A DNA stretch of 64,000 nt from Polytrichum commune (Eukaryota > Streptophyta > Polytrichopsida > Polytrichales > Polytrichaceae): assembly GCA_950295325.1 (NCBI GenBank), contig OX485804.1, positions 22,134,001 to 22,198,000 of the forward strand, in the 5' to 3' direction. Position 1 is the stretch's first letter, and every line of letters begins with the position of its first letter. Position numbers and translations under genes: made by a program. Positions 18,440 through 61,528 of this stretch are shown piece by piece. The notes below the pieces were generated by a model. The model did not search any database, was not told the DNA's origin, and saw only the letters and a list, made by a program, of their open reading frames with translations.

Positions 18440-21400
18440 ATGGAGGACAATCTGCACGAGAAACCGAGGAAGGAGCTCAAGCAGCTGTGCACTCAGTTTA
18501 ATATCCGGACTGCGGGTGTGAAGGTGCATAACTTACAAAGCGATTCATTTCCTTTCCATTCCATTCCAGTCCAGTGTTCTGGGTTTCTTCTTGGAGTGGT
18601 GTTTGAGAGAGAAACTGAGGGGGCTGTATCGCGGTTTAGTTTTCTCTTTTCTTTTTCTGCTTGCTGCTGGAGGGGTTGCGGTGGTTCTTGATGAATTAGT
18701 TCCAAGGTTCCAAGAGTTCCAAGAGTTGCTTTGTGTTGTGATGCAGGTTCGAGGATAGGATTGTTTAGATTGATGGCTAATATGACGTGGTCTTTGTTGA
18801 TACGTTTTCTGTAGCATGATGAGCTCGTCCGTTTGCTGCGGAACAAGCTGTACCCTGCGGTGCCGGAGACACCAAGGTATTTGACTTCTTATGATGAGCA
18901 AATTTTCAGAATTCATTTTCCCCTCCTCAGTGCAATATTTACGCCGTCAGGGCTTGATCTTGACGGCAGGCGCAACACGTCCTACGTCTTGAAGTTGAAG
19001 TTGGTTCAAGCTCATCATGAACAGCACAGGCGACGCATCATGATGAGTAGCCCAGTCGATGGTTGAGAAGTAAGATTGAGCTTCGAATTGGAGTCGAGTG
19101 TCAACCATCATGATGTTGTGCTTTTGGAGCGGTGCGGGGATGAATAATCGGTTTGGTATCTTCGAATGACTTTGGTTGGAACAGGTCACCCAAGGCGCGT
19201 GGACAGAACAGCACGAAAGCAAATGGTGCGGGTGAGTCTACGTCGAGTGAGAATGGTGACTCTTACAGGACGCCAAAGAAGTCTGCCAGTTTGGGGAGGT
19301 CCCTGCGCACTCTCTCGCACGAGGTACTTTATCTCTAGCTCCAATTTTATTGCTTACATCCTGATGCACTTAGTTTAGTTTTGATCATTTCTTGTTGTCT
19401 ACAGCTTCTCCAAATTCATAACATACACGTGAGAACAGAGATTCATTGGCTGTGTAGAAATTTAAAGTATGCGCGGGAAATATATTCTACGAAATGAAAT
19501 CGATATGTAACTTCTCCTATCGTTCACAAGTTCCTCGCACCTGCTCGTACCAGTATTCCTTCTTTGTGAAGCTTCCCGCAAGATAGTTTGTAAACCTTAG
19601 TAGTATGAACTCAATGGTACGCACCAGGTACAAATCTCTAGGTCCAATTCTATCGTATACATCCTGCGTTCAGTTTAGTTGAGTTCATTTCTTTGCCCTC
19701 TGTCTCAGCTTCTCCAATTCAGAACATATACCTACGTACTAAGATTCATTGAAACGTGTAGAAATTCAGTGTATGCGTGGGGATAAGACGAATTGAAATC
19801 AATATCTCAACTCCTATTGTTCACAAGATCATAGTAGCCGGTCGTACCTGTATTCCTCCTTTGTGAAGCTTCCGGCGAGATAACCTTGTATACATCAGTA
19901 GTTTGAAACTCAATGGTACGAACGAGGTACACGCTCTAGGGCCAATTTTATCGTTACATCCTGGTTTAGTTTAGTTTAGTTTAGTTCGTTACTTTTCAGG
20001 CTCTACAGCTTCTCCAAATTCAAAACTTATACCTAGAAACGACGATTCATTGAAACGTTGTAGAAATTCAAAGTATGCGTAGGGAACACTACGAAATGAA
20101 CTTTATGTGTAAATTGCTCCTATCGTTCACAAGATCCGCGTAGCTGTTCCTACCTTTATCCCTTCTTTATGAAGCTTTCCGCAAGATGTTTCTCTACCTC
20201 AGTAGTTTGAAACTCAATGGTATGCACGAGGTACGATCTCTAGGTCCAATTTAGCGTTTACACCGTGCGTTCAGTTTACTTTGATTCATTTGTTTTCTTG
20301 TCCTCTACGTCTTGTCCAAATTCAAAACATATACCTAGGAACATAGATTCATTTCAAAGTGTAGAAATTTAGAGTTTGCGTGGGGAATGCGACGAAATGA
20401 GATTGATATTTCAACTCCTATCGTTCGTTCACAAGATCCTCGTACCTGTATTCGTTCTTAGTGAAGCTTTTTCCGCAAGATTGTTTTGTATACCTCAGTA
20501 GTAATTCGGAACTCAATGGTGCTGACTCCGAGCCTCCTCATTGTTCTTCTTGCCTTTTATAATGATTCCAATTTATCCTAGGTTTAGTTTACTTTCAGTT
20601 CATTTCATGTCCTCTACAGCTTCTCCATATCCAAAATATATAGCTAGGACCATAGTTTCATTGACAAATGTAGAAATTTAGAGCATACGTGGGGAATACG
20701 ACGATGAAATTGATATATCAACTTCTCCTTTTATCGTTCATGAGATCCTCGTAGCTGATCTGTATTCATTCTTTGTGAAGCTTTTTCTGCAAGCTAGTTT
20801 GTGTACTGGTTCAGTACATTTGAAATTCAATGGCGCTGATTCCGAGCCTTCTCACTGTTGTTCTTGCCTTTTAGAACGAGTCGCCGAGGGATGCGTGGAA
20901 GCCAAAAGCTTTTCAACCGGATTCAGGGATGCTACGAAAACCACTGCTGACGAAGTCAAACACCACACCAGTTAAACGATCAGATTACGTGCGGAAGAAG
21001 GTGTATCCAGGAGTTGACACGCCCGCGCAAGAGAATACCTATGTCACTCAATCCTCTCTCAGAAGGCTGTGCCAAATAAACGCATCCCCTCTTGCAAACA
21101 AGAACAAAGCTATGGCTGGTAATAATGGTGAGCAATCGCCTGCAGCCTCACCCTCACAGCCCCCGGCTATCACACCATTCATACCGGAAGCAAACACATC
21201 GGCAAATATGTCTGAATTAGGCGCAGCAGCAGGCAGTCCACGTGGGTCACAAGATGAAGCAAGCAGGGCGGCCATGGAGCCAATTAGCGATGCTGGGTCG
21301 GAAAATTTGGGCAGTCCACGCGTATCAGAAGCTGATGTTATGTCAGAATCTGATGAGTTTCGTAGCGTGGGTGAGTCTCATTCGCAATCAAGGTTCGGTT

Positions 21401-24251
21401 CTCATCCGAAAGATATCCAAAACCGGGCATCCAGTAGACTCTCCCTATTTTCTGTGGCAAGTGCTTTGTCTTTCGCCACCGCAGGGAGTTGGGAGAGAGA
21501 GTTAGAAGAGTTAAAAGGTTTTGAGCATGATCTCTCGGAAGCCGGTGGTCACGAAATTGGGTCATCGCAGGCCGGACAGTCTATAGATCAGGAGATTGCG
21601 GCTGCTAAAGCTAGGCATAGACACCATAAACATCACAGCACGACAGAGAATTTGTTCCCGGATTCCTTCGAGGGTACAGATTTTTTGGTGGGTGGAGCAG
21701 ACGCGACGGACTTGTCGTTCTTAGAAGCAGGAGCTGCTGATCCAGAAGAGATAGGCGGGGCACATCATGATGAGGATCAACATGAGAATGACGAATTAGT
21801 TAAGCAGCTCAATCCTCTTGAGACTCACATGGCACATGATTACGTCAACTACAATCGTGGATCCGGTGATACGGGAGAGGAGCAATTACACTCGACATCA
21901 GGTGATGCTGCTGTGACTGACATTACGGAAGACCGGGGTGACGATATTGGAGACATTCAAATCACGCCAGCTGCAGTGCCATTAAAAGAAGACATCATCT
22001 CTTCTCAAGAATTTCCTCCCCTTGGAGACGGCATTCCACCGGAAGCTCTTGAGGATAATAGAGGCAACGACGCATCATCAACGGAAGGTTTGAGCCATGG
22101 CCATGGCTCAGAGGACGAATCGGCAGCGAGAATGCTACTCTCTCCTTCCGATGGAGACGTTGAAGGAGTTTCCAACACTACAGGAACGACGCAAAATAAG
22201 GATGTTACTTCTGCTAATAACTTGGCAGATGACAGCGGACGGGGGGGTGATGACACAATCATCGCTGGACCTTCTTCAGAAGCAGAAAAGGAAGCAGTAG
22301 ATGACATGCTACAACCTGGTTCTTCCAGTAGTGAAGTTCCATCTCATTTTGTGGAGAATGGGGGCCCAGAAGTATCTGCTTCACCCCCACATGAGAACTC
22401 GGCAAATGCAGACCCATCTGTTGACCAGGGTCATACGATGCAAGAAATGGGCAGTAACAAGACATCCGAAGAGGAAATCATAGCAGCTGCAACAATTACA
22501 GGGAGTGTGGAGGGTGCTCCGGGAGAGGTAATTTCTCCCGAAGTAGATCCTGTCTCGATTCCGGAAAGTGAAGCTCCTCCGTATGATGTCACCAAAGCTG
22601 TTGAATGCACTTTCACATCGGTCCGAGATGCAGCAGAAGTTGGATCCAGAGATGGAGAAAGGGAGGTTGCGCCGGACTCTGGAACTTCGAAAGAAGTCGA
22701 CGAGGGTAAGACCTCTGCATCTCCTTCAATCATAGCTCTTGATGATCATAGGGTCGACACAGTACCTGATTCTTCTACTCATGGTGAAACTGATGCCTAT
22801 GTACCCGAGGTCGTCAGAGTTTGGTTGGAGGAGCATGCAACCTCTTCTCCTGAACTTAATGATGTAGATCATGCAGTCTCGGGTGGTGAAGGTATGAGCA
22901 TCGATGAGAATGCACTTAGTTCTGCTTCAGCTTCACAAAGGCTGACAGATCAGGACGAAGGTGATGAAGATGACGACACAGAAATCCAAAAGTGTCTTGA
23001 ATATAATGCATCTTCAAATAATGTATTTGATGCCGTTGACAAGCTCCACAAATTGGGTCTTGATGAGGGTAAGAGTACAATTAAGACCGAAGACTTTAGA
23101 GACGGTGAGGATGCAGCTCCGCCTGTGCCACAGGCTGTTGAGGATTTGATAGAAGCATTGGAGACTTTCCCTCAGAAAATAAATGCAGATCCACCAGCAC
23201 CTTGTGATTTGCGTTCTGATATTGCCAACAATGATAATGGTTCTGCAAGTAATATTGCCTCTGAGCTGAATGCTGTTGGTGATGGTGATAAAGGGAATGG
23301 TAAAGGAGTTGCCGAGGAAACAGATGATGCCTCTACCTCTGAAACACATGGTCCATCATCAGACGATGCAGAAAACACACCGGTGGAGCTTGAGACGGCA
23401 CCTCAGAGCAGAGTTGAAAGTAACGGTGCAGATTCTCCCGAAAGTGAATATGGGGAACCGAGTAGTCAACTGTCAGAAGACTCTGAGGGTCTCAAGGATG
23501 TATGTACTGTTGAAGCTGAAGACCAAGTCTCAACCAGTGGAAACACAGAGGATGGTGAAGCTTCTACATCAAGAAGTTCTGAAGATCAAAGACAGATGGA
23601 TGCTGCTCTTCTAGACTTTACAAAGGGAGGGAGTACAGAAGCATCTCGCTTAACTGACGCGAAGGGACAAGGTGCCGAAGACTCTCAGGGTTTGGAGATA
23701 TTGCCTGAGAAGACCAATTCCGTGCAAGCCGTCAATTGCAGAAGTAATGGAGACATCCAAATTGCCCCACCTTCCATGGACGCTGAGGATAGTCATCCTG
23801 GAAAAGATATATCCTCGTCATCACGTCAAAGTAATGGAGACTTGAGATCAGAAAAGCCTGTTAGGGACAAGGGCGCAGCATCTACCAAGAAGACTGTTGC
23901 TTTCGCTCTGGAGCCGATAACCAGAGTGGAAATGGAAAGAAAAATTGATGAGAAAGATGAAAATCATGTCGGAGGCCTTAACGCAAGACCCGGTAGAGCT
24001 CAGGTTTGTGAAGCATTTGATATCCTCTCTATGTCGAGCTTCATTTTATTTGTTGCGTTGCCAAATGCTCTATGGAATCCTCAAGTACTTGTTAGAAGTG
24101 TTCATTGTACGCAAATCGCCTACTTGTCTCTTGATTAGTGTTCATTTACTCAATAGAAACCGCCTACTGTTTTCCATGGGTAGATAACGAAGCAAGAAAC
24201 AATCAGGGAAGCTTTTGAGCAATGAAGTGAATAAGAGAAAAGTCCGTCGAG
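18440..24251 (+). CDS. SAP-like N-terminal protein with a long acidic disordered region
   Basis: Five-exon model: 18,440-18,523; 18,815-18,876; 19,185-19,323; 20,875-24,003; and probably 24,197-24,251. All donors are GT and acceptors AG, and phases agree, giving 1138 codons before the last exon. Exons 1-2 encode PRKELKQLCTQFNIR and then HDELVRLLRNKLYP, two amphipathic helices like the SAP-type DNA/chromatin-binding fold seen at the N-terminus of several plant nuclear proteins. Exons 3-4 start with basic, proline-containing stretches (SPRDAWKPKAF, KRSDYVRKK). About 900 residues rich in E, D, S, G and A follow, with no recognised domain and probably disordered. Near the end is TKKTVAFALEPITRVEM. 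The start ATG is chosen because it opens exon 1 in phase. The C-terminus is unsure: the likely last exon reads KQSGKLLSNEVNKRKVRR, a basic tail. Probably nuclear; function unknown. Confidence 0.75.
19316..20874 (+). repeat. Tandem repeat (about 5 x 305 bp) filling intron 3
   Basis: The intron between exons 3 and 4 consists of about five diverged copies of a 300-310-bp unit. The anchor 'ctccaaattcaaaacatatacc' recurs near 19,403, 19,711, 20,011, 20,313 and 20,622. Each unit junction in copies 1-4 retains a (G/C)AG|GTAC splice-donor-like sequence (19,321; about 19,627; about 19,925; about 20,229). The fourth-to-fifth junction (about 20,510-20,575) carries a near copy of the true acceptor region (gactccgagcctcctcattg) but with the AG lost. 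Confidence 0.85.
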
Positions 24252-46570: not shown

Positions 46571-46580
46571 TACAGTCGAC
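46571..46580. repeat. 10-bp target-site duplication of the giant element (left)
   Basis: tacagtcgac, repeated exactly at 61,519-61,528. The inverted repeats begin directly inside both copies. Confidence 0.75.
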
Positions 46581-46750
46581 GGACGACACTCCTATGTGAG
46601 CGGAGAGCGGAGAGGAAGTAAAAATAGTAAACTTCATAGACTAAATTTAGAAATATTAAAAAAGAACAGAACATACTTAGAATATTCTAGATTCTTCCAA
46701 AAAATAGTAAAATTTTATAACCTATTTCCGTGGAATGTATAGGTCCTAAA

Positions 46751-49284
46751 TTAAATAAAAAGGCCCTGAATTTGAAATGGTGTCATTAAGTTTGGAAACC
46801 GTGAAGTGCTAAAATGATAGGAAAATTGTGATATAATAGATAAGCCCACATTGCCCTTCAAGTACTGGTAGTAATTGACGACTTGTAGGAATGCCTGGAT
46901 ATAGTCATCCACCGTGACGACGTAAAGATCACCGCCATTGTTGCCAGATGCTTGAAGCCACTTGTTGTGGACAGTCTCCGCAAGGTTGCAAGACGGCATC
47001 TCCGCAAGTTCTATCACCGTGAATTTATGGGCATCGCATGCGAGGTCAAGTTAGCATAAAATTCAAAACTATATCACCCTTCAAAGTCCGGATTGATGTT
47101 CATGGCAAAAATCGAATGAGCTTACCCCTGTCATAAATCCACCCCATTGGCGATAGCGGAAGTGCCAAAAGGCAAGCCACAACTCCAATTACTGAACGTT
47201 TTTTCAGTCATGGCCCCAACGGATACCCACCAAGCCCTCAGTACATGGTAAAGACTCTCGGCCTCGGCCAGCGTCCGTGTCGTCCTATAGTGGTGGCACA
47301 TCTTCACGTGTTGTTCCCTCATGTTTTCAGCGATGTGTTTGTCCGTGTATTTCAACATGGACTGGGTCCAGTGAAACTAACAAATCCTCTCTTGATCGTC
47401 CATGCGATCCTCCTTCTTGCCGTTCCCGTATATGACCCGGATGGCATTCCACTTTACATGCGCACTGTCCGCCATGAATCCTTTGAAGTAAGGTCTCTCG
47501 ACGCCATGTCCCTCCATCACTGCGTTGAGGTTTTTCCAGAACACCATCTGCGCATCAATATCCTTGGATTGCATGTCGCAACATGCAATGGTCATCACAC
47601 AGCAATAAGTCGAGTCGTAAACATGACAAGCCATGGTGGTCCACTGCCTCACCCGTTTGACGTGGTCGAACATTATCCAAACATTCTCGAGGTCCCCCTT
47701 GGGTTGCATTCGCTTCATCAAGTCCACCCCACTTCCAGGCCCCACCTCCAACATCTTGAACACGAAGACCTTGTCAAGCTCTGCACCTTGACCGGGAAAC
47801 ATGTTCTTTTGCACAAAAGCCCAGTTGTTGAGACCCCGCAACTTGGTAATTCTATCCATCATGCCATACCTCCTCAAGTATCTAAAGGTGACAACCTTGT
47901 TTCGGATGTTGGGCGACGCCATGTCCTTGCATTGGTCAAGCACCGGAACGAGTTCCTCAAAAGTAAACATCTTCGGCGGATCGTCCTCGGACCTCAACAA
48001 GTAGTTGCCAACAAGCATCTTACTTGCTTCCAACACAACTGCACTCTTCGTGGCCTGTGGAGTCTTCTCGATCTGATCTTTGATGAGGCTACTAATTTTG
48101 ACCTTCGTATCTCTATAGTTGCCAACTTTAACAGGATGCTCATGGGTTCCAAGGTGGATGCAAACACGGGTGTTGTTACGTTTGCCCGAGACATAATAGA
48201 CTTTAGCTCTACAAGTGGCAAGACAAGCGGGAGGTTCCTTGCACACCTTGCAAACCATAGTCGAATCTTTGGGAGGACCCTGGCCAACAACAAATGCTTG
48301 CAAGGTACATCCGTCAAACTTTGTCTCGTTCACTTCGAAGATGTGATGCTCACGGGTCAAGTAGGCGCACTCCTTATTCTCACACTGCAGGTGACCGACA
48401 CAACTTGAGAACCGGAAAGAGAGACCCATATCATTAGTGATGTTGGTCGTGATGGTTTTGGTCCAGACATGACCATCGTATCGTTTATCCATGCCATGCA
48501 TAGATTTTGCCTGCGTCCATGAGGTTGAAGTACCGGCAAGAGGCAACTCAAACATGACATCACCGTTAAATATTGTAGGCAAGTACTTAATTTTCTCATG
48601 TCTAATGGAACTGTAGTCAAACTTCTTTAGGAGATTCTTCTTCCCTGGCCTAGTAGCTAGCTTCTTCAAACAATCTACGAAACTGACGCACACACATGAA
48701 GAAGGCGGTTGCAATGGAGGACACTTATCTGAAACAACTACATGAGACTGCGACCGAACAGAAGGATTGGGTGGACTAGGAACTAAAGGCATGGATCTGC
48801 GAGGACTGTCATCGTCGTCTGATGAAAGGGTGATGACTGAATTAAAAGTGCCCAATTCGACCTTAACTTTTGCAAGAAGAGGAGTCTCTGGTCCTGGCTA
48901 TACCTTGACCTTTACATCAGTAGGAAGAGGGGTATGCATAGTGCACATAGATGAACGGCTAAGGGTAAGAATTTCCGTAGATGTTGCCATCTGGGAATCT
49001 GTCAATCCATAGACCCTATACCTGCCGGGAGCAAGTCTCCACATCTTGCAGTCATTCTCATCACGAATTGATAATTGGCCAATTGTGTGAGTTAGTTCAG
49101 ACATGAGGTCATCAAAAACCTCCTCCTCAATACTAATAGTGTCTTCTAGAAAAGTGAATCTAAGATTTAAACGTTGACTAGACACTGAAGCATGTCCGTT
49201 CTCATCCACACGAAAGGTAAGAGGAATGCACATGCCATTGGCGCGGAGCACAGCCAACGCAGCGGTTGAGACTAAATCCGCCAT
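46751..49284 (-). pseudogene. MULE-like transposase, decayed
   Basis: Starts at MADLVSTAALAVLRANG (ATG at 49,284) and stays in one frame to about 47,170. TAG stops interrupt it at 48,898-48,900 and 47,377-47,379, and a frameshift lies near 47,165. It continues FWHFRYRQWGGFMTG, then after a likely intron with a degraded acceptor, MPSCNLAETVHNKWLQASG and VDDYIQAFLQVV. A Cys/His-rich zinc-binding segment (C-C-H around QCENKECAYLTREH and a later HLGTHEHPV) precedes a DDE-like core with CHVYDSTYCCVMTIACCDMQ and FKGFMADSAHVKWNAIRVIY. The arrangement (zinc module, DDE core, later WW/Cys-rich part) and the 10-bp duplication of the host element support a MULE-type enzyme. The exact catalytic triad is not certain. 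The C-terminus beyond about 46,830 is not recognisable. Confidence 0.65.
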
Positions 49285-49784
49285 GGCGAGTAGAGACTGA
49301 GACCAACTCAACTGGAATGATATTGCTATATAGAAAGACAATCAAGAGAGGCGTGTGCCAATGCATTTATTGAATTGGTAATGGCCTACTCTAGAGTGTC
49401 ACCAGTTGATGAGAATGGAGTTCAATAATTTAAAGGCTTGTAGGATAATTGGTTGTTTTCTAGAATTATTATAGCAGTTGTAAAATTATTGGGCAAGGGT
49501 GATCGAAGGTATGTCAATGCATAAGTAGTTGTGTGGAATATGTGGCAACCAAATTTAGGCACAACCGACGTCATTTATTGGATCAATTAAATATCTATCA
49601 AATTTAGAATCAAAGGTTTAGGTGTAAAGTCGATTGCCCTCGGCCGCAATTTAAAGGATGAAAATAACAATTATGCGATATTATAAGTAATCATTAAAGG
49701 GGTCCATTAAATTGGAATGTAGTGGAGATTTAAACAAGATGCAAAACACCATAAAATTCCTCTCAGATTGCAGAAAGATGAGTT
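49285..49784. other. Spacer between divergent element genes
   Basis: AT-rich, about 500 bp, between the minus-strand transposase and the plus-strand unknown gene. It probably held both promoters; no element is recognised. Confidence 0.4.
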
Positions 49785-50525
49785 GATTTTGTGAATGAGG
49801 TAGTATCTCAGATGCATGCCATGTATCTATTAGACGGTGTGACACCTTCGATCGCAAAGCGAAGGAGAAGGAGAAAACCCCTATTCTCTAGTTCAAAGCA
49901 GATTAGGCGTGCTAGGATGAGAAATGCAGAGACTAATAGAATGCGGTTTGCAAACTTGGACGGTACCGTCAAGTCGTTAATAAACCAATTTGCCAAGCTT
50001 CCAGTCGAGATTGTACAAAATCAAGTTGTTGAACAAAAAATTACTTTACTTTCCCACTGAAAGTGTGAAACTGAGCTCCAACTATCGGTGGACTTCAGTA
50101 TTGTCGAAGAGAGTCAGGTATTTGATTGCCCACTCATTAATTAATGTTGTTTTTTATATTATAAATTTCCACATGGTGCAAGGTTAGGAACAACCTCGAA
50201 TGGGACGTTCACGGATGAGGATTAAGGCTTAGAATTCATATGCGTTGCTCGGTTGGACTACGGGGCTGAGGATAAATAATTAGGGTTACAGTTTTGGAAA
50301 GGGTTGAATAAGAACAAAGGGGTGCCACAAGAGGCGAGGGAGTTGGCAGCTAGAGAAGGGATAGTGAGTGCGGACTTCGTGGGTCTGAGAATTTGAGTCA
50401 TAGAGAGTGATTTAGATTCTGGGGAGATCAGTGAAGGGGAGATAAAAATTGAGGGCGGAACCTTGAGTCCGACTTGCACTGATGTTGACTTGCTATTAGT
50501 TAGATCAAACGCCAAATTAGATTAG
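49785..50525 (+). pseudogene. Unrecognised element-borne gene, decayed
   Basis: The first part (to about 50,115) encodes a basic stretch (SIAKRRRRRKPLFSS, KQIRRARMRNAETNR) and LDGTVKSLINQFAKLPVEIV. A small frameshift near 50,040 leads into FPTESVKLSSNYRWTSVLSK. A donor-like cag|gtattt at about 50,117 and an acceptor-like gcaag near 50,182 bound a short intron. The second part, one frame to TAG at 50,523, includes LDYGAEDK, LGLQFWKGLNKNKGVPQEA and ESDLDSGEISEGEIKIEGG. It is broken by TAA at 50,223 and 50,277 and TGA at 50,394. The stops fit CAA/CGA codons altered by C to T. I recognise no family. A DNA-binding or nuclear role is suggested only by the basic run. Confidence 0.45.
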
Positions 50526-50696
50526 GTTGGAGTCATATGTATTGCTAGCCAAACCAATCAACTGAAGTCCATCAATTGCGGTCCCAAGAAGTCGACAGAG
50601 AAATGAGCAACTCACCACGAGAACAACCAAGCAGTACAAACCGAGCCAGAGTATGTTGTCTGAACCCGAGGTGTGGGATTTTTTTTGAAGTGTTTG

Positions 50697-51647
50697 CGAA
50701 GTGAGGCCACCGAATCTGAGTCCAGTTCAGGGTTCGTAAAGGGTGTTGGATGGTGGTGGTTGGGTCCGACCACTATCTCTGGATTTTTTTTGAAGTATTT
50801 GCAAAGTGAGGCTACCAAGTCTGAATCCAGTTCAGGGTTCGTAAAGGGTGTTGGATGGTGGTGATTAGGTCCGACCACCACCTCTGGATCCTTAGCTAGA
50901 AGCCCCCAGCAGCTTCAGACCTCCATAACTTCCATGTGTGATATCTAATGCTCACATATGACTACTCTATCGTCATTTACGTGTTACATAGATGCGCATA
51001 GACACCTCACTTGTCCCATTTAGGCAACTATTGAGGAAGTTATGCTTGTTCAAACCTCCGTAGTCCCGGGAGCCACTCTCAGGCCACTGATGTTCTAGGG
51101 TGTTGGATGGTGGTGGTCGGGTCCGACCACCATCTCTTGATCATTTTTTTTTGAAATTTTTGCAAAGTGAGGCCACCGAATCAGAGTCCAGTTCAGGTTC
51201 GTAAAGGGTATTGGATGGTGATGGTCGGATTCGACCACCACCTCTAGATTTTTTTTTTAAAGTATTTGCGAAGTGAGGTTACCAAGTCAGAGTCTAGTTC
51301 AGAGTTCATAAAGGGTGCTAGATGGTGGTAGTTAGGTCCGACCACCACCTTTGGATCCTCAACTAGAAGCCCCAGCAGCTTCAGACCTCCATAACTTCCA
51401 CGTGTGATTTTTGATGCTCACCTATGACTACGCTATCGTCATCTACATTTCACGTAGATGCGGATGGACACCTCACTTCCCCCATTTAAGCAAGTATTGA
51501 GGAAGTTATGCTTGTTCAAACCTCCGGAGTCCTTTGAGCCACTCCGATGCCACTGCTGTTCCAGGGTGTTGGAGGGTGGTGGTCGGGTCCGACCACCACC
51601 TCTGGATCCTCTTTTTTTAAGTATTTGTAAAGTGAGGCCACCGAGTC
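50697..51647. repeat. Tandem array, left block, with perfect palindromes
   Basis: Built from a roughly 105-bp unit (agtgaggccaccgagtctga ... gggttcgtaaagggtgttgg ... poly-T) and an interspersed roughly 240-bp unit (agcagcttcagacctccata ...). The short unit holds a palindrome made of two 12-bp arms, ggtggtggtcgg and its complement, around gt; it is perfect at 51,575-51,600 and degenerate near 50,752, 50,858, 51,115, 51,220 and 51,328. The array continues in the same orientation at 55,735 after the inserted PIF/Harbinger element. Confidence 0.88.
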
Positions 51648-51990
51648 TTATGTCCCGATCATACCAATTTCCCATCAACTTCCGGATGTGAAATAATTGG
51701 GAAGTCATGACGGCCAGATGCCAAGTTATTCATACCAACATCCCGGTTTGGTTAACATTTTGGTGGCCGGTGGCTACCATCATGACCGGTCAAACGAGTT
51801 GGTATAGACTTTTAAGGATAATTGTTCTTCCTTCTATAAGGAACCCGCCTTGATTTTCAACACGATGACTTTTGTCTCAAGTTCTTCATCATACTTAAGA
51901 CTCTCTTGAAATGTTCAATTCATCATTTGGGTTGGACACAAACTTGTTAGAAGCGTAGTGCATGTAACATTGGATCCATTAGAGTTTCTT

Positions 51991-53211
51991 ATGATGTCCC
52001 CTTTGTTCCAAAATGATGAAGATAATTGTAACGTTATTTTTTCGTTGATTACTATGATTAGTATGAGTGAGGTTATTCAAAAAATAATTCACCGTTAGTG
52101 GAAATTTCCACGTTCGAGGTATATGTGGAAGGTTATACACAAAGATATTTGGAATTTTGACTCAGAAGTTTGTGATGGTTTATGGATTCAAGAATATAGA
52201 ATGACCTACACATCTTTTTTGAATCTAGTTGAATTTTTTAGGCCTTACGTAGAACATGAAACTACCAACTAAAGAGCAGCAATTGAGGTTGATCGTGCTA
52301 TAGCTATGGTATTGAATAAGTTAGCATTTGGATTTTACAATAGACACGTTGCCAACAATTATTGTGTTGGACAAAGTACGGTTTGGAAGTATACTTTTAT
52401 TATTACAGAGGTTTTGGCTAGTCCACAAAAATTATATTCCCATTTCATTAGTATTTCTCAAGGTGAAATATTGATATCGATTATAGCACACTTTAAGAAT
52501 TTAATTGGGTTAGAAAATATGTGTGGGGCCATTGATGGCACTCACATTAGATTGGTTGAAAAACCTCCTACAAGCTTAATTCATGCTGATTATTGGAACC
52601 GGCATGATCATCATTCAGTATTGTTACAAGGTGTTTGTGATGCTAATCTTGTGTTTTGGGATGTGTGTGTAAGGGCACCTGGAGGAACTCACGATGCAAC
52701 TCACTTTCGGGATTCATTTTTGTACAAGGATTTTTTGGAGAAAACTATTTTGCAAGAATCAAGTATTAAACTAGGCTCTCATTTAGTTCGACCTTATATT
52801 GCGGGTGATTCTGCCTATCCTTTGATGATTTACATTATGAAGGCATATTCTGATCGAGGCAATGGTGATATATATAAAGATATTTTTTATAGGGCATTTA
52901 TATTGGGGAGGGTTAAAATTGAAATTTTTTTTGCCCATCTCAAGAATAGTTGGAAAGTTCTCAAGTGTCTTAATTTTACTGTCCCATATCCATGCCAAAT
53001 TATTATTGCGTGTTGTGTTTTATACAATTTTTGCAGAATGAATAATGAACAACTTGCAAGTAGACAAATAGTGGATCCCCACCCAAACCTTAATGATTTG
53101 AGGGTTCCAAGGAGACCAACTACTGAGAGAGCAACTAGACTTGCCGCAATTGCCATTAATATTCGACATGCTATCTATGAGAAATGGTTACATTCCATTT
53201 TAAATGACTAG
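51991..53211 (+). pseudogene. PIF/Harbinger DDE transposase
   Basis: A single frame of about 406 codons from ATG at 51,991, broken by TAG at 52,096 and TAA at 52,270. Family residues are present: the first Asp in MCGAIDGTHIRL, the second in YIAGDSAYPLMI, and the Glu in VKIEIFFAHLKNSWKVL, followed by a typical CCVLYNFC segment. It would cut and join at TWA targets together with the Myb/SANT-like partner encoded on the opposite strand. The part downstream of 52,306 is an uninterrupted 301-codon frame and includes the whole catalytic core, so decay is mild. Confidence 0.9.
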
Positions 53212-54023
53212 ACATATTACGTGGTTCATTCTACTATATTACGGCATGTATTTTGAAATTTACATATTTTATTTAATACAAATGTGCATATGGTAATTAT
53301 ATATATATATTATTTATCTTTGTATGATAATTTATTTATATCGAGATGCAATAATTGTGGATGCTTTGAAAGTCCTCTTAAGGGGTGAGATTGTAATCAC
53401 CAAAAACAATTAACCAATTACATAATACTAATAGAATATAAACATGTAACCAGTTCGACTTTGAATCACTAGGATATTGACCACTTTATGTATTTGGATG
53501 CTATTTTATTTTTCTCTCGTAATCACCAATTTCTATTGGATATATTATATAACAGAGGTTGTGTTTCATTAGCAAATCTACCATGACACATGCATCAACT
53601 GGAATGGAAATTGGACCTTCTTTGATTTAGTTGTGACTATCAAAAGTGCATATTTATTAAATTTTAAGGGGATACTTAGGTCCTTCTAATTGTATTTATT
53701 ATTGAGTATAGAGTCTTTGTTGATGTTTGAATACATAGTCCAATAAGTTATTTAAATAAATATATATTTATAAATATATATATTACATGCACAAAGTTCA
53801 TACCATCAGTCAATATGTTCACAACATCAATCAATCAATGTTATATATGTATATTATATATAATATATAATATATAACATAATATAATATATCATATACA
53901 ATATAAATGTAATCTTCAACAAAATATATAATTTACTAGCCTAATTCAAAGATAAAAAACATCATCTTTTTATTGTCGTTTGCGCTTAGAAGAATTACCA
54001 ACTTCCATTTTCATTCGGAACAA
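53212..54023. other. Convergent intergenic region of the Harbinger element
   Basis: About 800 bp of AT-rich DNA between the two convergent genes, with TA-rich runs at about 53,750-53,930. It presumably holds both 3' ends. Nothing else seen. Confidence 0.6.
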
Positions 54024-54809
54024 CTACATTTTTAGGTTCTCAGCTCGTTCTTTGGCGTTTGCATCTAACTCATGTAGTCGTAGTTGAAATGCTTGATTAT
54101 CCGAATGCATTTGGGCAGCCAATGCTAAGTGTTTTTCGGCTATTGACATTCTGGTTTCATCTAATGACTTATAGACATCTACAAATCTATTCAAGGAATC
54201 TGCAATAGGTTTGCTAGAAGTGTCATTACGTTTAGAATTCAATTTACCTTCTACATTGGGTAAATTGCAAGCTCGTTGCCGTAAAGATTCTGCAGTGATC
54301 TCTGAAGGTGTAGTATTCATACCCTCTGCTTCGGGATTTGTTGGAGTTATGTGCACTAGACTTACAGGAATATCCTTGTTAAAATTAAATGGCTCATATT
54401 GATCCAAATCAATATTTGTGCTCGTGTAAGGCACTTCACCTCGATCTTGCGATCCTGACAAACCGGAACATTTCGGTGTAGTAGCCCACATTTGGTCACA
54501 TTCTTCGTACCAAACCCAAGTTCAAGCTGTCCCCCCTGAAATTTTGACAACCTCTACACGTTCTTTTTGTATATATTTTTTTGAATTATCAATTTTATTT
54601 TTGAGTGTTTGTTTTGTCAATTGAGACCCTGCTTCGGCATTAAATGAAGCGGTTAGTTTATTCTAATGATGATCTTTTGCATTGCCTCGTCTTAAATGAA
54701 AGTATTGATCCCGGAAAAGAGTCAATAAAATCATTATCCATGCATCCAATCAGTGGGTGGCAAGTCCCTTAGAACTTGACTCCGTTTCGTTTACATTTGG
54801 TGGCGCCAT
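54024..54809 (-). pseudogene. Myb/SANT-like partner protein of PIF/Harbinger
   Basis: One 262-codon frame beginning MAPPNVNETESSSKG (ATG at 54,807-54,809), with three in-frame stops. All three fall at positions where the Myb/SANT-like family usually has Trp: after KGLATH, after NAKDHH, and in SGGTA(stop)TWVWYEECDQMWA. The rest shows the typical trihelix region (LTKQTLKNKIDNSKKYIQ) and a C-terminal helical stretch (RMSIAEKHLALAAQMHSDNQ). In this superfamily the protein binds subterminal DNA and brings the transposase to the nucleus. It lies convergent to the transposase, as usual. Confidence 0.8.
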
Positions 54810-55731
54810 CCTGTAAAATATATTCATAATAAATCTCAAAGGATTTTTGTACATTGTTATGATTAGAGAGAACCGACAGTTAGTTTGTTCTCAATGCCTA
54901 AATACGTAACAAAACAACCAATTCACGTAAACATATGGTACAACAGAGATCCCAAATTGAATTAAAAAGTTCAAACTTTGATTTCAGAGGAAGATTCAGA
55001 AGCCGACAAGTAAAGATAGCCTAAACAGTTTGCAAAGAAGGTTTATGGCATTCTCATCTTCGCACCCACTGAAACGAAACTCAGGATCTCAAAATAATCA
55101 CAGTACATACACACTATTATTCAATCAAAGAAATTGTGAGAAGCGTGTCAAAAAATAACCTTGGAATTTTATTCTTATTCAGCTCGGAGTTGTGCCAGAT
55201 CCTAACTTTACATGCACTGCATTGAAACAAACACACATACATTTTTACTTGAAGGGCCCCTTTCTCAGATCTACATCTGACTACTACTACTGCTAATAGA
55301 CATTTAAAGCGAGTAGAACTTACAGTTTAGCAATGACAAAATAGTAACCATGGGACAAATCTACTATACATTGCATCAACAAAAATAAACCAGAGTTGCA
55401 CAAAGATGAAGCTCAAGAATTAAAGAAACTAACATGGAATTATGTTGGATGTAGAGATGCACAACACAATGAGGAAGTATCTTATAAGAAACTTCTCAAT
55501 GTGTAGCAACCGGAATAGAGTAACCGGCAGATGTTAATATTGGAAGGGTTACTATTTTCGGTGGTGGGACCCACACTCCCGACGCACGTCCAAACGTGGA
55601 TGTCAAATTATAGTTGGTGGCCATCTCCGCCGCCGTCATACATCATGGATGGTGATGGCCCACTATGAAAATCACTATTAAAGACTTATTCATCTACTGA
55701 AAATGAACTTTCCGTTTGGTGTGATCGGGCA
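54810..55731. other. Right non-coding part of the Harbinger element
   Basis: Upstream region of the Myb/SANT-like gene up to the right inverted repeat. No coding sequence recognised. Confidence 0.6.
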
Positions 55732-55734
55732 TGA

Positions 55735-56240
55735 ATCCAGTTTAAGGTTGTAAAGGGTGCTGGATGGTAGTGGTTAGGTCTGACCACCACCTCTGGATCC
55801 TCAGCTAGAAGCCTCCAACAGCTTCAGACCTCCATAACTTCCACGTATGATCTTTGATGCTCACATATAACCATTCTATCGTCATTTACGTTTCACGTAG
55901 ATGCGGATAGATACCTCACTTGCCTCATTTAGGCAAGTATTGGAGGAAATTATGCTTTTTCAAACCTCCGTAGTCCCGGGAGCCACTCCCAGGCCACTGC
56001 TGTTCCATGGTGCAGGATGGTGGTGGTCGGGTCCGACCACCACCTCTAGATTTTTTTTTTGAAGTTTTTGCGAAGCGAGGCCACCAAGTCTGAGTTCAGT
56101 TCAGGGTTCGTAAAGGGTGCTGGATGGTGGTGGTCGGGTCCGACCACCACCTCTGGATTTTTTTTTTTAAGTTTTTGCAAAATGAGGCCACCGAGTCTAA
56201 GTCCAATTGAGGGTTCGTAAAGGGTGTTGGAGGGGCCAGG
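55735..56240. repeat. Tandem array, right block
   Basis: Continuation of the array at 50,697-51,647, in the same orientation and register. It contains two perfect 26-bp palindromes (56,019-56,044 and 56,126-56,151) and a degenerate one near 55,768, plus one roughly 240-bp unit. It ends about 100 bp before the first ATG of the methyltransferase-like gene, so it may also have served as that gene's upstream region. Confidence 0.88.
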
Positions 56241-56341
56241 TTTAGGGTTTGAGTTGCATTTGTTTGATTTCTGATTTGACGGGTGATGTTTGCTTGTTAC
56301 CTAGATTGAGGCCGCTTAGAGTTGTTTTTGTGTAGATTTGT

Positions 56342-59300
56342 ATGATGTCGATTGTAAGTGAAGTTGTGGAGGTTGCAACTGGAGGGTCATCAACAAGAGT
56401 TTCGGGGAGTCTCTGCAGAGGAGCCATGGACTTGGAGGTTACCCACGGGTCGCCTGATGTAAGCATTGCACCAAGGAAGGGAAAGGGAATGGTGCGGCGC
56501 ATTCCTTAGTCTGAGTCCAGTGAGAGTGGAGATCGCGACGACGGTGATGAGTCGCAGCCTTCGTTTGGGATGGACTCGGTAGGGGGATCATAGTCACCAT
56601 CCTCTTGCAAATTTTAGTCAAGGCCAGAGTAGTGGTGATGGAGGCCATTTTGAGTCACTTGTGGAGCATGCTCGAAGGCAAGTTAAGGGCCTAACAAAGG
56701 TTGAGAACAATGTGCAAGCCACATTGCTCCGTGACAATATGTATGAGGTAATTGAAAGTATGAGGCGGCAACCCGTCTCAAAAGCAGTCCTTCGAATTCT
56801 ATTGTGTAAGAAGATTCACATACCTATGGTTAAACCTACACTTCGATGTGATGTTGTTAAGTTGATAGGAGCGTTTCGCTATGGGGATAAACCCCATTCA
56901 GGTGCTATTTATGTGTCCGTGACAGATGACGAGGATCAAAACATGGTTGTCACTCAAGAGGATGTACAACATGGAGCCCTTGTTGGATTCAGGAAAATGA
57001 TGCATTCGAAAACTGCTTGAAATCCGATGCTAACCTTGTGAGCTTGAGTGGCTCAATGTTCTTTGTTTATGATGGTAACCATAGGCTCTTAGCTTAGAAG
57101 GAGATGATTGAAACTCTTCATACTGAAGATCAACATTGGATTTCGAAGAATGGTAATCCCGAATACGTTGTACTTGACACCACTGGAGGTCGTGGAGATA
57201 TTCTCACTGCCATGCACGATATCAACAAATAATTTTTTTGTTGATCTCATATTGTTTTTGATCTTCTTATTTGGCGCTTCACAATTTATGCAATCTGACA
57301 TGCCAACTGTACAGGTCCAATCAAATGGCACATGTGAAGAATAACTTAGTTCATACTCTTCATCGTATTCGGAATTACGGATCATATGACATTGAGTACT
57401 TCAAGCCCATGCTTACTTAGGAGCAGATAAAATCATGCCTGACGAAGTCAAAGAAGACGTAGTACCCATTTACTAGAGATTTGATGGTCAACTTCATCTT
57501 CATTGTAAGGATCTCATTTCCTTCTGGTTTCTTTCTTATCTGCAATCACTTGATTTGACAGTTTAGTTCTGATTGTTTGCTTCATTTTTCAGGATGATAT
57601 AGTCCAAGTGGCTAGCGAGGCTGGGCAGTTATACTTGGAAGAGGTGGATGAAAGCGTGCATAGCAATTCAGGCCTCCATGAATATGTTGACAAGGCTATT
57701 GCTAAGAAGAAAGAGGAGCTATTTACCTACTTCAACAAAGCCCAATCAGTTGCTAATCCAGCCGTAGGGGAGGGCTTCATGGAAGAGGTGAGTGAATTTT
57801 ACTGGGATTTTGATTTTGATTCAAGACCTTAGCTTTGCCTCTACTGATGCATTATTTCCTTGGACATGCAGGTTATTGCGCATTACAGTGCACACGTTGC
57901 TGCCAAAATTGAGATGTCACTAGAGAAACTGCAGATGGTGGCAACTGCAGCGGTTGAGCCCAAGTACAAAGTGCGTTGGCTCAAGTGGTGGAACAGTTCA
58001 GATCTTGTTCGAAAGGACCTCGGGTTTTCAAAGTACCATGTTGGTGAGGACACGCTGAAGAAATGGATGGACCGTGCTGCTCTTTGGGCAAGGATAGAAG
58101 AAAGTGCCACTCAAAAGCTTGTTGGTTACATAGCACTAGTGGGTGGGGTTGATAAGTCCAAAGATGTAGAGAGTCTTGAGGACTACATTGACACTTGGCG
58201 AATTTGCCTTTGGGACAAGGCATTTAACTCCCTCTTATATGGTTCTGATGCACACAATAAATCCATTGTGTTTAATAAAGTCAAGGATGGGGATCTTCTT
58301 GTGAAGCGGCTTTGCCTCAGGTATGAGTTAGTTATTTATTTATTTCATTACATTTTTTTTTCAATGCCGATGGCTACTTGCGGTTTTGCTTTAGTGTGAT
58401 GCTATGTGTGCCTTGTTCATTCATGTCTTGTTACCAATCTCATCTAGTGTCTTTTGCTAAATTTTGAAGGTATATGAAGCACGTGCTCCTTAAAGTTGGG
58501 GCAATTCGGAAGCTACCTCCTTGTGTGCAGGGGTGGTGCGATTCTTCTTCACCGACCTTCATCTTCTCAAAGGCACAGAAGAAGAACTTCAGTAAAGAGC
58601 ATTTCATTGAATATTGTTGGTACATCGAATGTCCTAAGGACTTTGTGCCTGACTCGGAGTATGAGATCAATAAATCCTTAACTGTCACATAGGATCTCCC
58701 TAATGATGATGATGCACAAGAAGTTGAAGAGATTGCTGCTCTTGAAGTTTCACCTACCTTGGATGGAGAGAAGTCTTCTGGTAAGAAGAAGCTTGCTGCA
58801 AAGACTTCAACAACCGGAGTATCCAAGAATAGTAGAACGATTCTTGCTTCAGTGGTTGCCACTGGATCTGCCACAGTTGAAGACACTCTAATGGATGAAG
58901 TTGATAGTGAGCCACTTCTACTCACTCAGAGCTTTCTGAAGGTACCAACTCCTCCCTCTCTGTCTCAGCATCCTTCTTATGAGAGCAAACCGCAAGTCCT
59001 TGTCATCAACGACTATATTCTTAAGCAGCAATGGTTCTTTCGTGAGGTGCGCAAGTTTGTTGTATCATGCTCTCTTTCTCGCTCATGGAGAATCCACGGG
59101 TTGCCTTCATTGCGTGGAGCAGCTGACTTGGTGATTGCAGACTTACCGGAAGGTCTGTCGGTTCCAACTATCTCGGTGCCATCATCAGTAGTACCCACTT
59201 GGAATGAGAAGAATAAAGACTACTTGCAAGAGTTGTTTGATTTTGCAGATGAGATTCTACACGATAATGGTGCCTTGTTACTTTTTTTCCATTTGATAAT

Positions 59301-60382
59301 GGAGAGTTCCTTGAGGACATTGAGAGGTTTTATGATTATTTTGGCTTTGTTGTGTGCAAGGAGTAGATGGGGGTCAATCTCTTGCCCATGAGCTCGGCAA
59401 GGATTCCCAATACCACCACGAACATATTCAATATCCTTCTTCTCAAGCGGGTTTCACGGCCCGAGGACTCCGTGTCTTGGACTTTTACATTTTCCATTCG
59501 TTATGTACCAGAGTTGGTGGCGCAGGGTGTGGACGTTGGCCTCAACGACACATTGATTAATTTATGCACCAATCCACTCATGGATGGTGCTCGACCGTGG
59601 AGAGGCCCAAAAGAGAAGGATGAGTACTTCTTTTCATGCCTCATTATGGCTCTAACCACAGTCGGGGACTTGGTTATTGATGTTGCAGCTGCCATTGGTA
59701 TGAATTTCACTTCATTGATGTCATTGATTTGAATTCAAACTAATCACTTTGTGAATATGGTACTTATTACAAATTGTTGATTTCTTTGTAGGCAATTCTA
59801 TTCGTGCTTGCAAGAGTACTGGCAGGCACGTACTGGGCCTAAAGAGTGACAAGAAGTTGTTTGGGGTTGTTCTTCAGCCTATGATGACTATTGCTCCATT
59901 TCCTCCACCTCCTCAAGCCCCTGTGCCAGTTGCAAAGAAGCCAAAGAAAGTTGTTGCAGTGAAGCGGCGTCGTGTTGAGGACTCTGAGTAAGTAAGCACC
60001 GCTTACTCTTTCTATTTCATTGGTCAATATTCATAGTTTTTTAAGAACCATGATATCACTTGTGCCTAAACTCTTTAAAATGTTGCAATATTGCAAAGAC
60101 TATCCTAGTCCAGCTAAGAGTTGGAGACTCCCTTCTTATGCAGAAGAAATTGCTAAGCTGCAAGCACTACATGCATCTCCATCTCTCCAGTCAAATGCCT
60201 CTCCGAAGTATAACCCTCGTGTTTTGAAATTCTTAGATGTTGCTGCAGATGTTGATTTTGAGATTGGCTTGATTGACACTCAAGCCAACCCTAGTGATTT
60301 TGTTGGTGGTTCTATTTCTCTATCCACCAACTTTGTTGGTAACATTTTGATTTATGTGGATGATGAGGCTATTAATGAATAG
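56342..60382 (+). pseudogene. ParB-like / beta-class DNA amino-methyltransferase-like protein, decayed
   Basis: Multi-exon gene. The N-terminal part (56,345-57,230) ends in FFVYDGNHRLLA, a GNHR motif like that of ParB/sulfiredoxin-fold domains. Middle exons follow (57,314-57,509; 57,595-57,787; 57,872-58,320; 58,471 onward) with HYSAHVAAKIEMSLEKLQ and WLKWWNSSDLVRKDLGFSKY. The C-terminal part has methylase motifs in beta-class order: a motif IV-like ADLVIADLPEG (59,122-59,154), then NDNGALL, then WRGPKEKDEYFFSCLIMA followed directly by TTVGDLVIDVAAAIGNS and CKSTGRHVLGLKS (across the intron at about 59,701-59,791). A basic tail KKPKKVVAVKRRR and a last exon (to TAA at 60,380) follow. Stops lie at 56,507, 56,591, 57,095, 57,418, 57,460, 58,690 and 59,364, with frameshifts near 56,610, 56,997 and in the T7 run at 59,282. 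DPPY is replaced by DLPE. The methylase fold is fairly sure, the ParB part less so. Confidence 0.6.
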
Positions 60383-60609
60383 ACCTCAATTTCGTTTTTC
60401 TCAACTAGTCAATCATATCTCCAATCTGGAGAGCCATTGTAATGGCTACTTTTATGTTTTCAAACTGTGTTAATCTCATTTTTACCACTGAATTACAACT
60501 GTAATCAATCTTTGCCTATGATACATCCATACCCTAAACCCTCGCATGAAACATGCATGAGTTATATGTTTTTGAGAGAAATTGGAAAAAGTTAGTATGG
60601 CTGTAAAAA
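60383..60609. other. 3' flank of the methyltransferase-like gene
   Basis: Short AT-rich region directly after the last exon, probably its 3' untranslated region. Confidence 0.4.
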
Positions 60610-61220
60610 TGAAAATAAGCAACAAAGAATTGAAGAATAGTCTTTGAGAAATCATGAGAAGAGAGAAAAATGAAAATTAAGATAGATAGGGCATTGATGT
60701 TATCCAAATAGTTAATCATTAGAAGAAGAGATCATTGACAAATAAACAACCCCAAAATGAGTTTTCTCAAAAGGAAAAAGAATAGAAAAAAATCAAGAAT
60801 GTAAAAATTAAAAAAACAATGGACAATGGATAATTTTTTTTTTAAAAATGAAAAATGAAAAAAAATTGATAAGATAAAAAAATTGAAGGTAACAAGTCTT
60901 TGAGACTAAGAAGTGAGGAAAATAAAAATTAAAGATTATAGGGCATAAATGTTAACAAAATTGTTAATGAATAGAAGGGATGATTCACAATTGAACAACC
61001 AAAAGAATTAGGATTTTATAAGGGATAAATTAAAAAATGTTAATAAAAAAAATTAAACATAGAAGATAATAAGTCTTTGAGAAGTCTTTAATGTAAATAA
61101 AAAATAATTTAAGATTGATTGGGCATGGATGTTAACCATTTAGTGAATAAATAAAAGAGGTCAGTGACAAATGAACAATCACAAAAATTTCAATTCTTAA
61201 AAGGAAAATGAATAAAAGAT
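60610..61220. repeat. A-rich diverged tandem repeat near the right end of the giant element
   Basis: Three diverged copies share agtctttgaga (near 60,639, 60,896 and 61,073) and gggcat(t/a/g)(g/a)atgttaac (near 60,688, 60,941 and 61,122), with an A-rich body between. Spacing is uneven (about 250 and 180 bp). It is non-coding and lies 300-900 bp from the terminal inverted repeat. Confidence 0.65.
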
Positions 61221-61518
61221 ATTGAGATAGATAAGTGAAGGCCAATGCGCGGCTCTTGAACTTTGACATCATCATGATGTCAGCTCTAATTGATGCATAG
61301 AAATTGTGATGAACCCTAAACCAAAACGGTGGAAACATGTACATAGATTATATTCTTAGATTGAGAATCCACAGTTATACATATCAAAAGTTTAAATTAG
61401 TAATAAAGTTGTCAAAAAATTCCATGGTTATAGGAGTTGATTCATCTTAAAATGACATTCCAAATGTCTATTTTCTACTCTCCGCTCTCCGCTCTTTGCT
61501 CGCATACGACCTTTCCCC

Positions 61519-61528
61519 TACAGTCGAC
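61519..61528. repeat. 10-bp target-site duplication of the giant element (right)
   Basis: tacagtcgac, identical to 46,571-46,580. Confidence 0.75.

Follow-up and report, generated by a model that had tools for sequence, protein, structure and literature searches.

The DNA considered here, called the window throughout, is a stretch of 64,000 nucleotides from Polytrichum commune, and it holds a gene in which a ParB-like domain is joined to a methyltransferase-like domain. This gene is an accessory gene of a large DNA transposon: it and a transposase gene diverge from a non-coding centre that carries sub-family-specific palindrome arrays. The window transposon extends from 46581 to 61518 (14.9 kb) between exact 10-bp target duplications, with the ParB–methyltransferase gene as its right-hand gene. 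We propose, with a probability of roughly 0.55, that protein and palindromes may constitute a parS-like self-targeting regulatory or epigenetic system, in parallel to VANC in the VANDAL elements of Arabidopsis. The genome searched (G000, 408 Mb) is the one to which the window belongs, on contig C2. A search for the LEAFY domain gave four matches above the cut-off in it and none in 14 control genomes, in agreement with a land plant. The element is laid out in the window as follows.

46571-46580, unstranded: left target-site duplication TACAGTCGAC, identical to 61519-61528
46581-46601, plus strand: left transposon end GGACGACACTCCTATGTGAGC; 356 such ends within 2 mismatches in the genome, control 0 and 1
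46844-49293, minus strand: transposase gene, decayed; by tblastn, 67% amino acid identity over 709 columns to the open 762-residue frame of the copy L010, plus shorter pieces
50676-51644, unstranded: tandem array with 105- and 466-bp periods, palindrome cores at 51117 and 51583
56009-56231, unstranded: tandem array with a 107-bp unit and GGTGGTGGTCGG-GT-CCGACCACCACC at 56019-56044 and 56126-56151, candidate binding sites
61498-61518, plus strand: right transposon end GCTCGCATACGACCTTTCCCC; 7 exact copies in the genome, control 0
61519-61528, unstranded: right target-site duplication TACAGTCGAC, equal to the left duplication
52273-53211, plus strand: second transposase frame (DDE_Tnp_4, Pfam E 1.4e-18), inside the element and outside the system

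The limits of the transposon recur across the genome. When 100 of the 356 left ends were paired with 66 of the 100 listed right ends (of 117) plus the 7 exact right ends, the target duplications matched at 9-10 of 10 positions in 14 of 18 end pairs (the window, two young copies and 11 of 15 further ones), against a mean of 2.5 matching positions of 10 for unrelated flank pairs. Where the duplications match, the 14 elements measure about 11.6-26.2 kb; the two young copies that were compared are units of 17.0 and 15.6 kb, flanked by 10-bp direct repeats (CTTACGAAAG; GGTCTCCTAC). Matching duplications are absent from the other 4 of the 18 pairs. At G000:C1:20217184-20268296, two copies of sub-family B lie inverted, and the left flank of L024 matches the right flank of L027 at 10/10 positions while the reciprocal pair does not match. 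This crossed match suggests a rearrangement between copies, which would account for part of the unmatched end pairs.

Linkage to the transposase is equally regular. With one row kept per methyltransferase copy and secondary pieces dropped, 27 of 59 matches of the transposase family have a methyltransferase exon within 30 kb, and the two are divergent in all 27; the other 32 have no such exon among the listed methyltransferase matches. The sequence-only reading, made from the letters and reading frames of the window, had raised the idea of Mutator-like element (MULE-like) transposases beside the gene, and this linkage, together with the 10-bp duplications, agrees with it. The element is most likely a Mutator-like DNA transposon. 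Target-site duplications of MULEs measure 9-11 bp. The MULE-like label comes from the duplications of 10 bp and from a possible SWIM finger in the transposase (E 0.051-0.14, below the cut-off); the Pfam MULE transposase models gave no match to the transposase at E<=10. The 21-bp transposon ends match as an inverted repeat at 13 of 21 positions, and no long terminal inverted repeat was seen.

An element of the DUF7869 type was considered as the carrier and rejected: the locus L005 has no recognised transposon end, and no DUF7869 frame was seen in the delimited elements that were read, those of the window and of L010 and L006. At L005:5682-8848 (minus strand), beside a B2 copy, there are two long open frames, one of them DUF7869 (E 1.1e-42), which belong to another type of transposon.

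The region between the divergent genes contains tandem arrays, whose units carry a palindrome with a 2-bp centre. The sequence-only reading saw the features of the gene and overlooked these arrays. A core TCGG-NN-CCGA is present in four sub-families (A, B, C and D), and the outer arms vary symmetrically, which we infer is what would be expected of a dimeric binder diverging together with its site. The palindrome is GGTGGTGGTCGG-GT-CCGACCACCACC in A, the sub-family of the window copy, CTGTCGG-AT-CCGACAG in B and, in the longer units only, GGGTTCGG-TC-CCGAACCC in C. In D, TTGTCTCGG-AT-CCGAGACAA, with the core TCGG-AT-CCGA, or close variants of it occur 12 times, and 9 of these occurrences belong to the array that flanks the ParB exon.

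The sites are confined to a striking degree. The 20-bp inner pattern of A has 50 exact sites genome-wide, all inside the seven A copies (1 to 14 per copy). Five of these copies have a transposase that could be located, and there 37 sites stand between both genes; the two remaining copies account for 13, upstream of the ParB exon. Sub-families C and B have 124 and 374 sites genome-wide, with 15 in one B1 array; among the first 50 of each, 42 (C) and 46 (B) fall within 10 kb of a ParB exon. Uniform base composition predicts 0.006 (A), 0.09 (C) and 1.5 (B) sites, and the backward controls gave 0 for all three. A palindrome of the C type with a CG centre was also seen at G000:C2:63185324-63185341, 122 bp from a right transposon end and with no listed ParB exon near. 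A common core was predicted beforehand for three further families; it held in one of the three, and recurring perfect palindromes were found in the arrays of two of them. One of these families, L071, carries arrays of 32-bp and 64-bp units upstream of its ParB exon (L071:675-985 and 1728-2296) with the perfect palindromes GTTTGGGTCG-AC-CGACCCAAAC and CTGTGCGTTAACGCACAG. A palindrome like those of L071 recurs in an array of 78-bp units at L005:8940-9837.

The ParB–methyltransferase gene occupies 56342-60382 on the plus strand. The motifs listed for it in the sequence-only reading were checked for presence and order, and all were found. GNHR lies at 57.08 kb, the motif-IV-like ADLVIADLPEG at 59.12 kb, WRGPKE at 59.60 kb, the motif-I-like GDLVIDVAAAIG at 59.66 kb, GRHVLGL at 59.82 kb and, last, a basic tail, KKPKK..KRRR, at 59.94 kb. 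The exons were placed largely by comparison with relatives, in particular with the intact copy L006 (C1:37678000-37687900), whose 8 exons, joined across GT-AG introns, give 1,096 residues without interruption. That the gene has introns, as had been claimed, is thus borne out by L006.

56342-57228, plus strand: exon 1, ParB/sulfiredoxin-like domain with GNHR, decayed (homology to L006 exon 1; fold of the L006 domain)
57315-57504, plus strand: exon 2 (homology, L006 junctions)
57593-57787, plus strand: exon 3 (homology, L006 junctions)
57872-58320, plus strand: exon 4 (homology; corresponds to exons 4 and 5 of sub-family B)
58470-59697, plus strand: next exon, linker and methyltransferase motifs IV to I (ADLVIADLPEG, WRGPKEK, VIDVAAAIG; comparison with relatives, methyltransferase profile)
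59792-59987, plus strand: next exon, remainder of motif I, motif II (NSIRACKSTGRHVLGL) and basic tail (comparison with relatives)
60097-60382, plus strand: last exon and stop codon (homologous frames in L001-L003)

In the comparison of window 57872-58320 and L001 with exons 4-5 of L006, one exon in family A corresponds to two in B; as judged from these alignments, this is an intron gain or loss inside the transposon gene.

The window copy is broken: TAG interrupts its frame at six positions or more, the frame shifts by one base three times, 9 bases are deleted, and two of the splice sites are altered. Its identity to four other A copies is 93-94%, and those four are 97-98% identical among themselves. 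Of its 224 private substitutions, 114 are C>T, at a per-site rate that is highest in the CHG context (28/252; CG 15/188; CHH 71/1,361); in the other four copies, the top context is CHG in two and CG in two. The C>T excess fits decay after cytosine methylation. A C>T change on either strand can turn CAG or TGG into TAG, and the run of TAG stops would fit such decay. Five of the TAGs were compared with the four relatives, which have the sense codons Q, W or P at those positions; for the sixth (57.46 kb) and one at 59.36 kb, examined by eye only, relatives show W. A reassigned TAG code was rejected, given the sense codons at the compared positions and the richness of the window copy in C>T. Single exons of the broken copy gave no significant match in Pfam and, therefore, the analysis moved to its relatives.

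The sequence-only reading had looked towards intact paralogs, and they exist in the same genome. The piece with the ParB domain has 150 scored relatives of 757 candidates (the family searches scored 150 of 757, 100 of 1,871, 59 of 2,377 and 150 of 1,216), and at least some 200 relatives are listed genome-wide, part of the candidates having been scored. Family A consists of seven copies at 73-100% identity, the window copy included, and the other relatives of the ParB piece are at 30-45%. For the methyltransferase half, the full 416-residue exon is open in 18 of the 20 best matches. Chance is excluded as the source of the window feature by the 150 scored relatives and the open exons among them. 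The methyltransferase domain occurs in families A to G, and both domains, with the same motifs kept, in the five diverged lineages A to E.

The protein appears to be mostly maintained by purifying selection. The ratio of nonsynonymous to synonymous divergence (dN/dS, NG86) is 0.06-0.42 in 17 pairs of ParB exons and 0.11-0.37 in 6 pairs of methyltransferase exons; one very close pair of 118 codons gives 0.98 (dN 0.026, dS 0.026). These are the 24 of 107 pairs with dS < 2, the other 83 having dS of 2 or more, zero or undefined. The sequence-only reading saw in the gene a bacterial type of protein adapted to a eukaryote. The introns and the basic tail stand, but the gene is an accessory gene of a transposon with roughly 200 listed relatives rather than a host gene. 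A host gene adapted from bacteria was rejected because the gene sits within target-site duplications and recurs with the transposase.

The N-terminal domain has, in the predicted model, a ParB/sulfiredoxin fold. The AlphaFold2 model, made from an alignment of 22 members, has a predicted local distance difference test (pLDDT) score of 85.9, and in the VIA structure comparison its top 14 rows are ParB, Noc, KorB or PadC, with Z from 9.8 down to 7.4; sulfiredoxin and other rows come next. The best match is ParB 7bm8, at 1.9 Å over 94 residues, with a Z of 9.8 that is a moderate margin, as best values of Z between 7 and 8 are common; KorB has Z 8.7. In Foldseek, rows 1-40 are sulfiredoxin, ParB-type or SbnI proteins, the best at E 8.7e-3 and none at 0.001 or better. 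GNHR, which we take to be the equivalent of GERR, the G-x-x-R nucleotide-binding motif of ParB, is present in 22 of the 22 members aligned. Sequence searches gave less. Pfam ParBc matched none of the 22 members at E<=1 and none of 5 at E<=10, PDB sequence profiles returned nothing relevant to the ParB domain, and the ParB-like partition protein of PHROG matched 10 of 22 members (best E 0.084). The claim of a ParB-like domain stands on fold, not on a significant sequence match to ParB.

The C-terminal domain is, by its profile matches, a CcrM-like beta-class methyltransferase domain. A profile of eight such domains matched the CcrM–DNA complex 6pbd in the PDB (E 5e-9, profile positions 17-230 of 245), with DLIIADIPENLPV falling on DLIFADPPYNLQL and the motif I/II region aligned too. 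The CcrM model of NCBIfam was matched by 8 of 8 members at E<=1 (best 2.1e-8), short of its equivalog cut-off (27.4 of 830 bits), and Pfam N6_N4_Mtase (PF01555) by 7 of 8 at E<=10 (best 3.6e-9), the B1 member exceeding the cut-off of 26.7 with 28.7 bits. The proposed beta-class amino-methyltransferase fold with motif order IV then I is thereby upheld, and so is its distinction from the MT-A70 type. The AlphaFold2 model of the methyltransferase exon alone, without the next exon, has pLDDT 56.5, and CcrM comes first in Foldseek (E 3.5e-4), which is consistent with the assignment and not evidence for it.

The catalytic DPPY is replaced by D[LIV]PE: D55, P57 and E58 are invariant in all eight aligned copies, and in a second alignment (A4) D50, P52 and E53 are invariant in 12 of 12 rows. 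In the S-adenosylmethionine (SAM) site region, all eight copies agree in D239, G245, R256-H257, E262 (motif II) and D264; they vary at the first Gly of FxGxG, and motif IV precedes motif I. Because D[LIV]PE is found everywhere while the SAM-site signature is largely kept, we may have here a methyltransferase that has been remodelled or inactivated and acts by binding, or one with another substrate. The family match to DNA methylases holds; adenine methyltransferase activity is putative, given D[LIV]PE in every aligned copy.

Relatives in prokaryotes and viruses were sought with short patterns, which distant relatives may escape. The ParB alignment gave 40 pattern stretches in viral_contigs and 99 in genome_contigs, and the methyltransferase alignment, run against viral_contigs only, gave 32; none was confirmed. 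The ParB domain (240 residues) against phages reached a best E of 0.7. The sequence-only reading pointed to the ParB–methylases of phages and bacteria; a recent transfer from either is not supported by these scans.

How might such a protein serve its transposon? The reading that we favour is that the ParB-like domain would bind the palindromes of its own element as ParB binds parS, possibly with loading and spreading. Since the arrays are central between the divergent genes, the sites lie near both promoters, and the bound protein would bring a SAM-dependent-methyltransferase-like domain to them. DNA or chromatin at these promoters would then be modified or masked, and the element would escape host silencing or have the expression of its transposase tuned. 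Of the steps in this mechanism, the part played by the methyltransferase-like domain is the least certain. A bolder version, which we hold tentatively, is a eukaryotic nucleation-and-spreading system of the parS/ParB kind, in which the protein would load at family-specific palindromes and a re-purposed CcrM-like domain would keep the chromatin of the element open; protein and palindrome would diverge together, so that each sub-family would recognise only itself.

Several findings weigh against self-targeting through the palindromes. Many short, 85-bp units of family C have no palindrome, and the arrays beside the gene in families E (L070) and L071 lack TCGG-NN-CCGA, E having only an imperfect palindrome, seen by eye. 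In a test by shuffling of units, 5 of 10 arrays had a best perfect palindrome that was significant (p 0.003-0.013), and B2b, C, D, E and the second L071 array did not (p 0.07-0.68). Nor is the palindrome clearly better conserved than the rest of the arrays: per column, palindrome versus rest, the values are 0.962 and 0.891 in A (11 of 80 windows as good; exact core in 6 of 8 units), 1.000 and 0.970 in D, and 0.964 and 0.990 in B2b, where it is worse. The A and B centres (window and L006) have a 197-bp stretch in common at 79% identity, so common descent of the array DNA can explain part of the similarity. In the comparison of units, with a doubled 56-bp piece of the unit as the query for D, A, C and D had no alignable match to other families except one 24-bp match between C and B2b. 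In favour of the palindromes, all five B1–B2b alignments overlap them. On the side of the protein, no DNA-binding helix was identified downstream of the ParB domain, the fold match has the moderate margin given above, and motif IV departs from the canonical (D/N/S)PP(Y/F/W).

Not all of the rival explanations are mutually exclusive with self-targeting or with each other. The one we regard as possible, if rather doubtful, is autorepression or copy-number control, in which the ParB-like protein on the arrays would repress both divergent promoters in the manner of KorB, and the methyltransferase part would be a remnant. The 37 sites between the divergent genes of five A copies are placed as this would have them, KorB is among the best folds, and D[LIV]PE suggests lost catalysis. 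A remnant, however, has no need of a SAM-site region with D239, G245, R256-H257, E262 and D264 invariant in all eight copies, and the number of sites in most copies, up to 14 in A and 15 in a B1 array, exceeds that of a simple operator. Those who see in the same domain an active enzyme would have it mark its own arrays or ends as a DNA N6-adenine (or N4-cytosine) methyltransferase, excluding silencing or labelling the element for the transposase. The relationship to CcrM is clear over the whole domain, and self-binding with self-modification has been suggested for the Ectocarpus homologue in a passage of PMC12477816. We nevertheless think this unlikely, because all 8 aligned copies lack the aromatic residue of DPPY as well as one of its prolines, and the palindromes have no single adenine-containing target in common, GATC being present in B and D and not in A and C.

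About as improbable is an accessory role in transposition itself, similar to that of mudrB, with the protein binding element DNA and aiding synapsis or integration and having no part in expression. The linkage with the transposase, in 27 pairs that are all divergent, speaks for it, and mudrB offers a precedent (PMC6446971), but the 50 A-type sites are central, with none at the ends, a layout that resembles the targets of VANC. That the gene is a mere passenger, captured and copied along without function, we consider very improbable. The decay of the window copy and the dN/dS of 0.98 in one close pair could be read in this way; it is already contradicted by the selection data, with dN/dS well below 1 in 23 of the 24 listed pairs, by both domains keeping conserved motifs in five diverged lineages and by the intact young copies.

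A few features of the window stand apart from this system. The DDE_Tnp_4 frame at 52273-53211 encodes 312 residues in an AT-rich stretch; we take it to be PIF/Harbinger-like, and it is probably a nested transposon insertion. At 20875-24138 there is an open frame of 1,087 residues, acidic and Ser-rich, for which Pfam gave nothing at E<=0.01; a 304-bp tandem repeat lies ahead of it, at 19316-20520.

Among the open-licence papers in PMC, which leave subscription journals mostly outside, we found no report of a ParB–methyltransferase transposon gene in a land plant, nor of the palindrome arrays. ParB–methyltransferase accessory genes as such have been reported from algal transposons, Sola1-1_Ec32 of Ectocarpus carrying one (PMC12477816). 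According to the passage of that paper on which we rely here, the likeness is close: the accessory protein has 1,104 amino acids there and 1,096 here, combines a ParB-like domain with a methyltransferase of the N4C/N6A type, and is encoded on the strand opposite to the transposase. In contrast, the present element belongs to a land plant, has 10-bp duplications and is not a Sola element; it has D[LIV]PE as its catalytic motif, and it carries palindrome arrays, which go unmentioned in that passage. The suggestion of self-binding and self-marking made there for the alga can now be tested with named candidate DNA sites, and such an element is placed in a land plant, with roughly 200 or more listed copies and young intact members.

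With bacterial ParB/parS, Noc and KorB, the system shares the N-terminal fold (Z 7.4-9.8), a GxxR motif and clustered palindromes near the gene. Here, the setting is a eukaryotic nucleus and there is no sequence match at the level of Pfam; if the self-targeting proposal is true, a eukaryote would be using a ParB-type domain together with sites of the parS kind. With CcrM and the beta-class N6-adenine methyltransferases (PF01555), it shares the motif order IV..I and a profile match over the whole domain, but has D[LIV]PE for DPPY and a variable first Gly in FxGxG. With D[LIV]PE conserved in place of DPPY, one may ask what role a methyltransferase fold has when it lacks the usual catalytic motif.

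MuDR and other MULEs resemble the element in their duplications of about 10 bp, in having a transposase and an accessory gene, and in the possible SWIM finger. The genes of MuDR converge, whereas here they diverge from the centre, the terminal repeats are short and imperfect (13/21), and no Pfam MULE model matched. We know of no relation between the VANC proteins and the ParB–methyltransferase protein. Among systems known to work, VANC is the closest analogy. VANC of the Arabidopsis VANDAL elements has arrays of family-specific motifs in non-coding DNA, and its binding accompanies loss of methylation (PMC5735166). Both are accessory genes of plant transposons with a family-specific short motif in tandem arrays of non-coding element DNA, and in both, motif and protein diverge together by sub-family. 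The VANC21 motif (YAGTATTAY) is arrayed in one orientation, as described in the same source, while the motifs here are palindromes with a 2-bp centre. If the proposal is true, the ParB–methyltransferase protein and its palindromes would join VANC as a second type of system by which a plant transposon recognises its own family.

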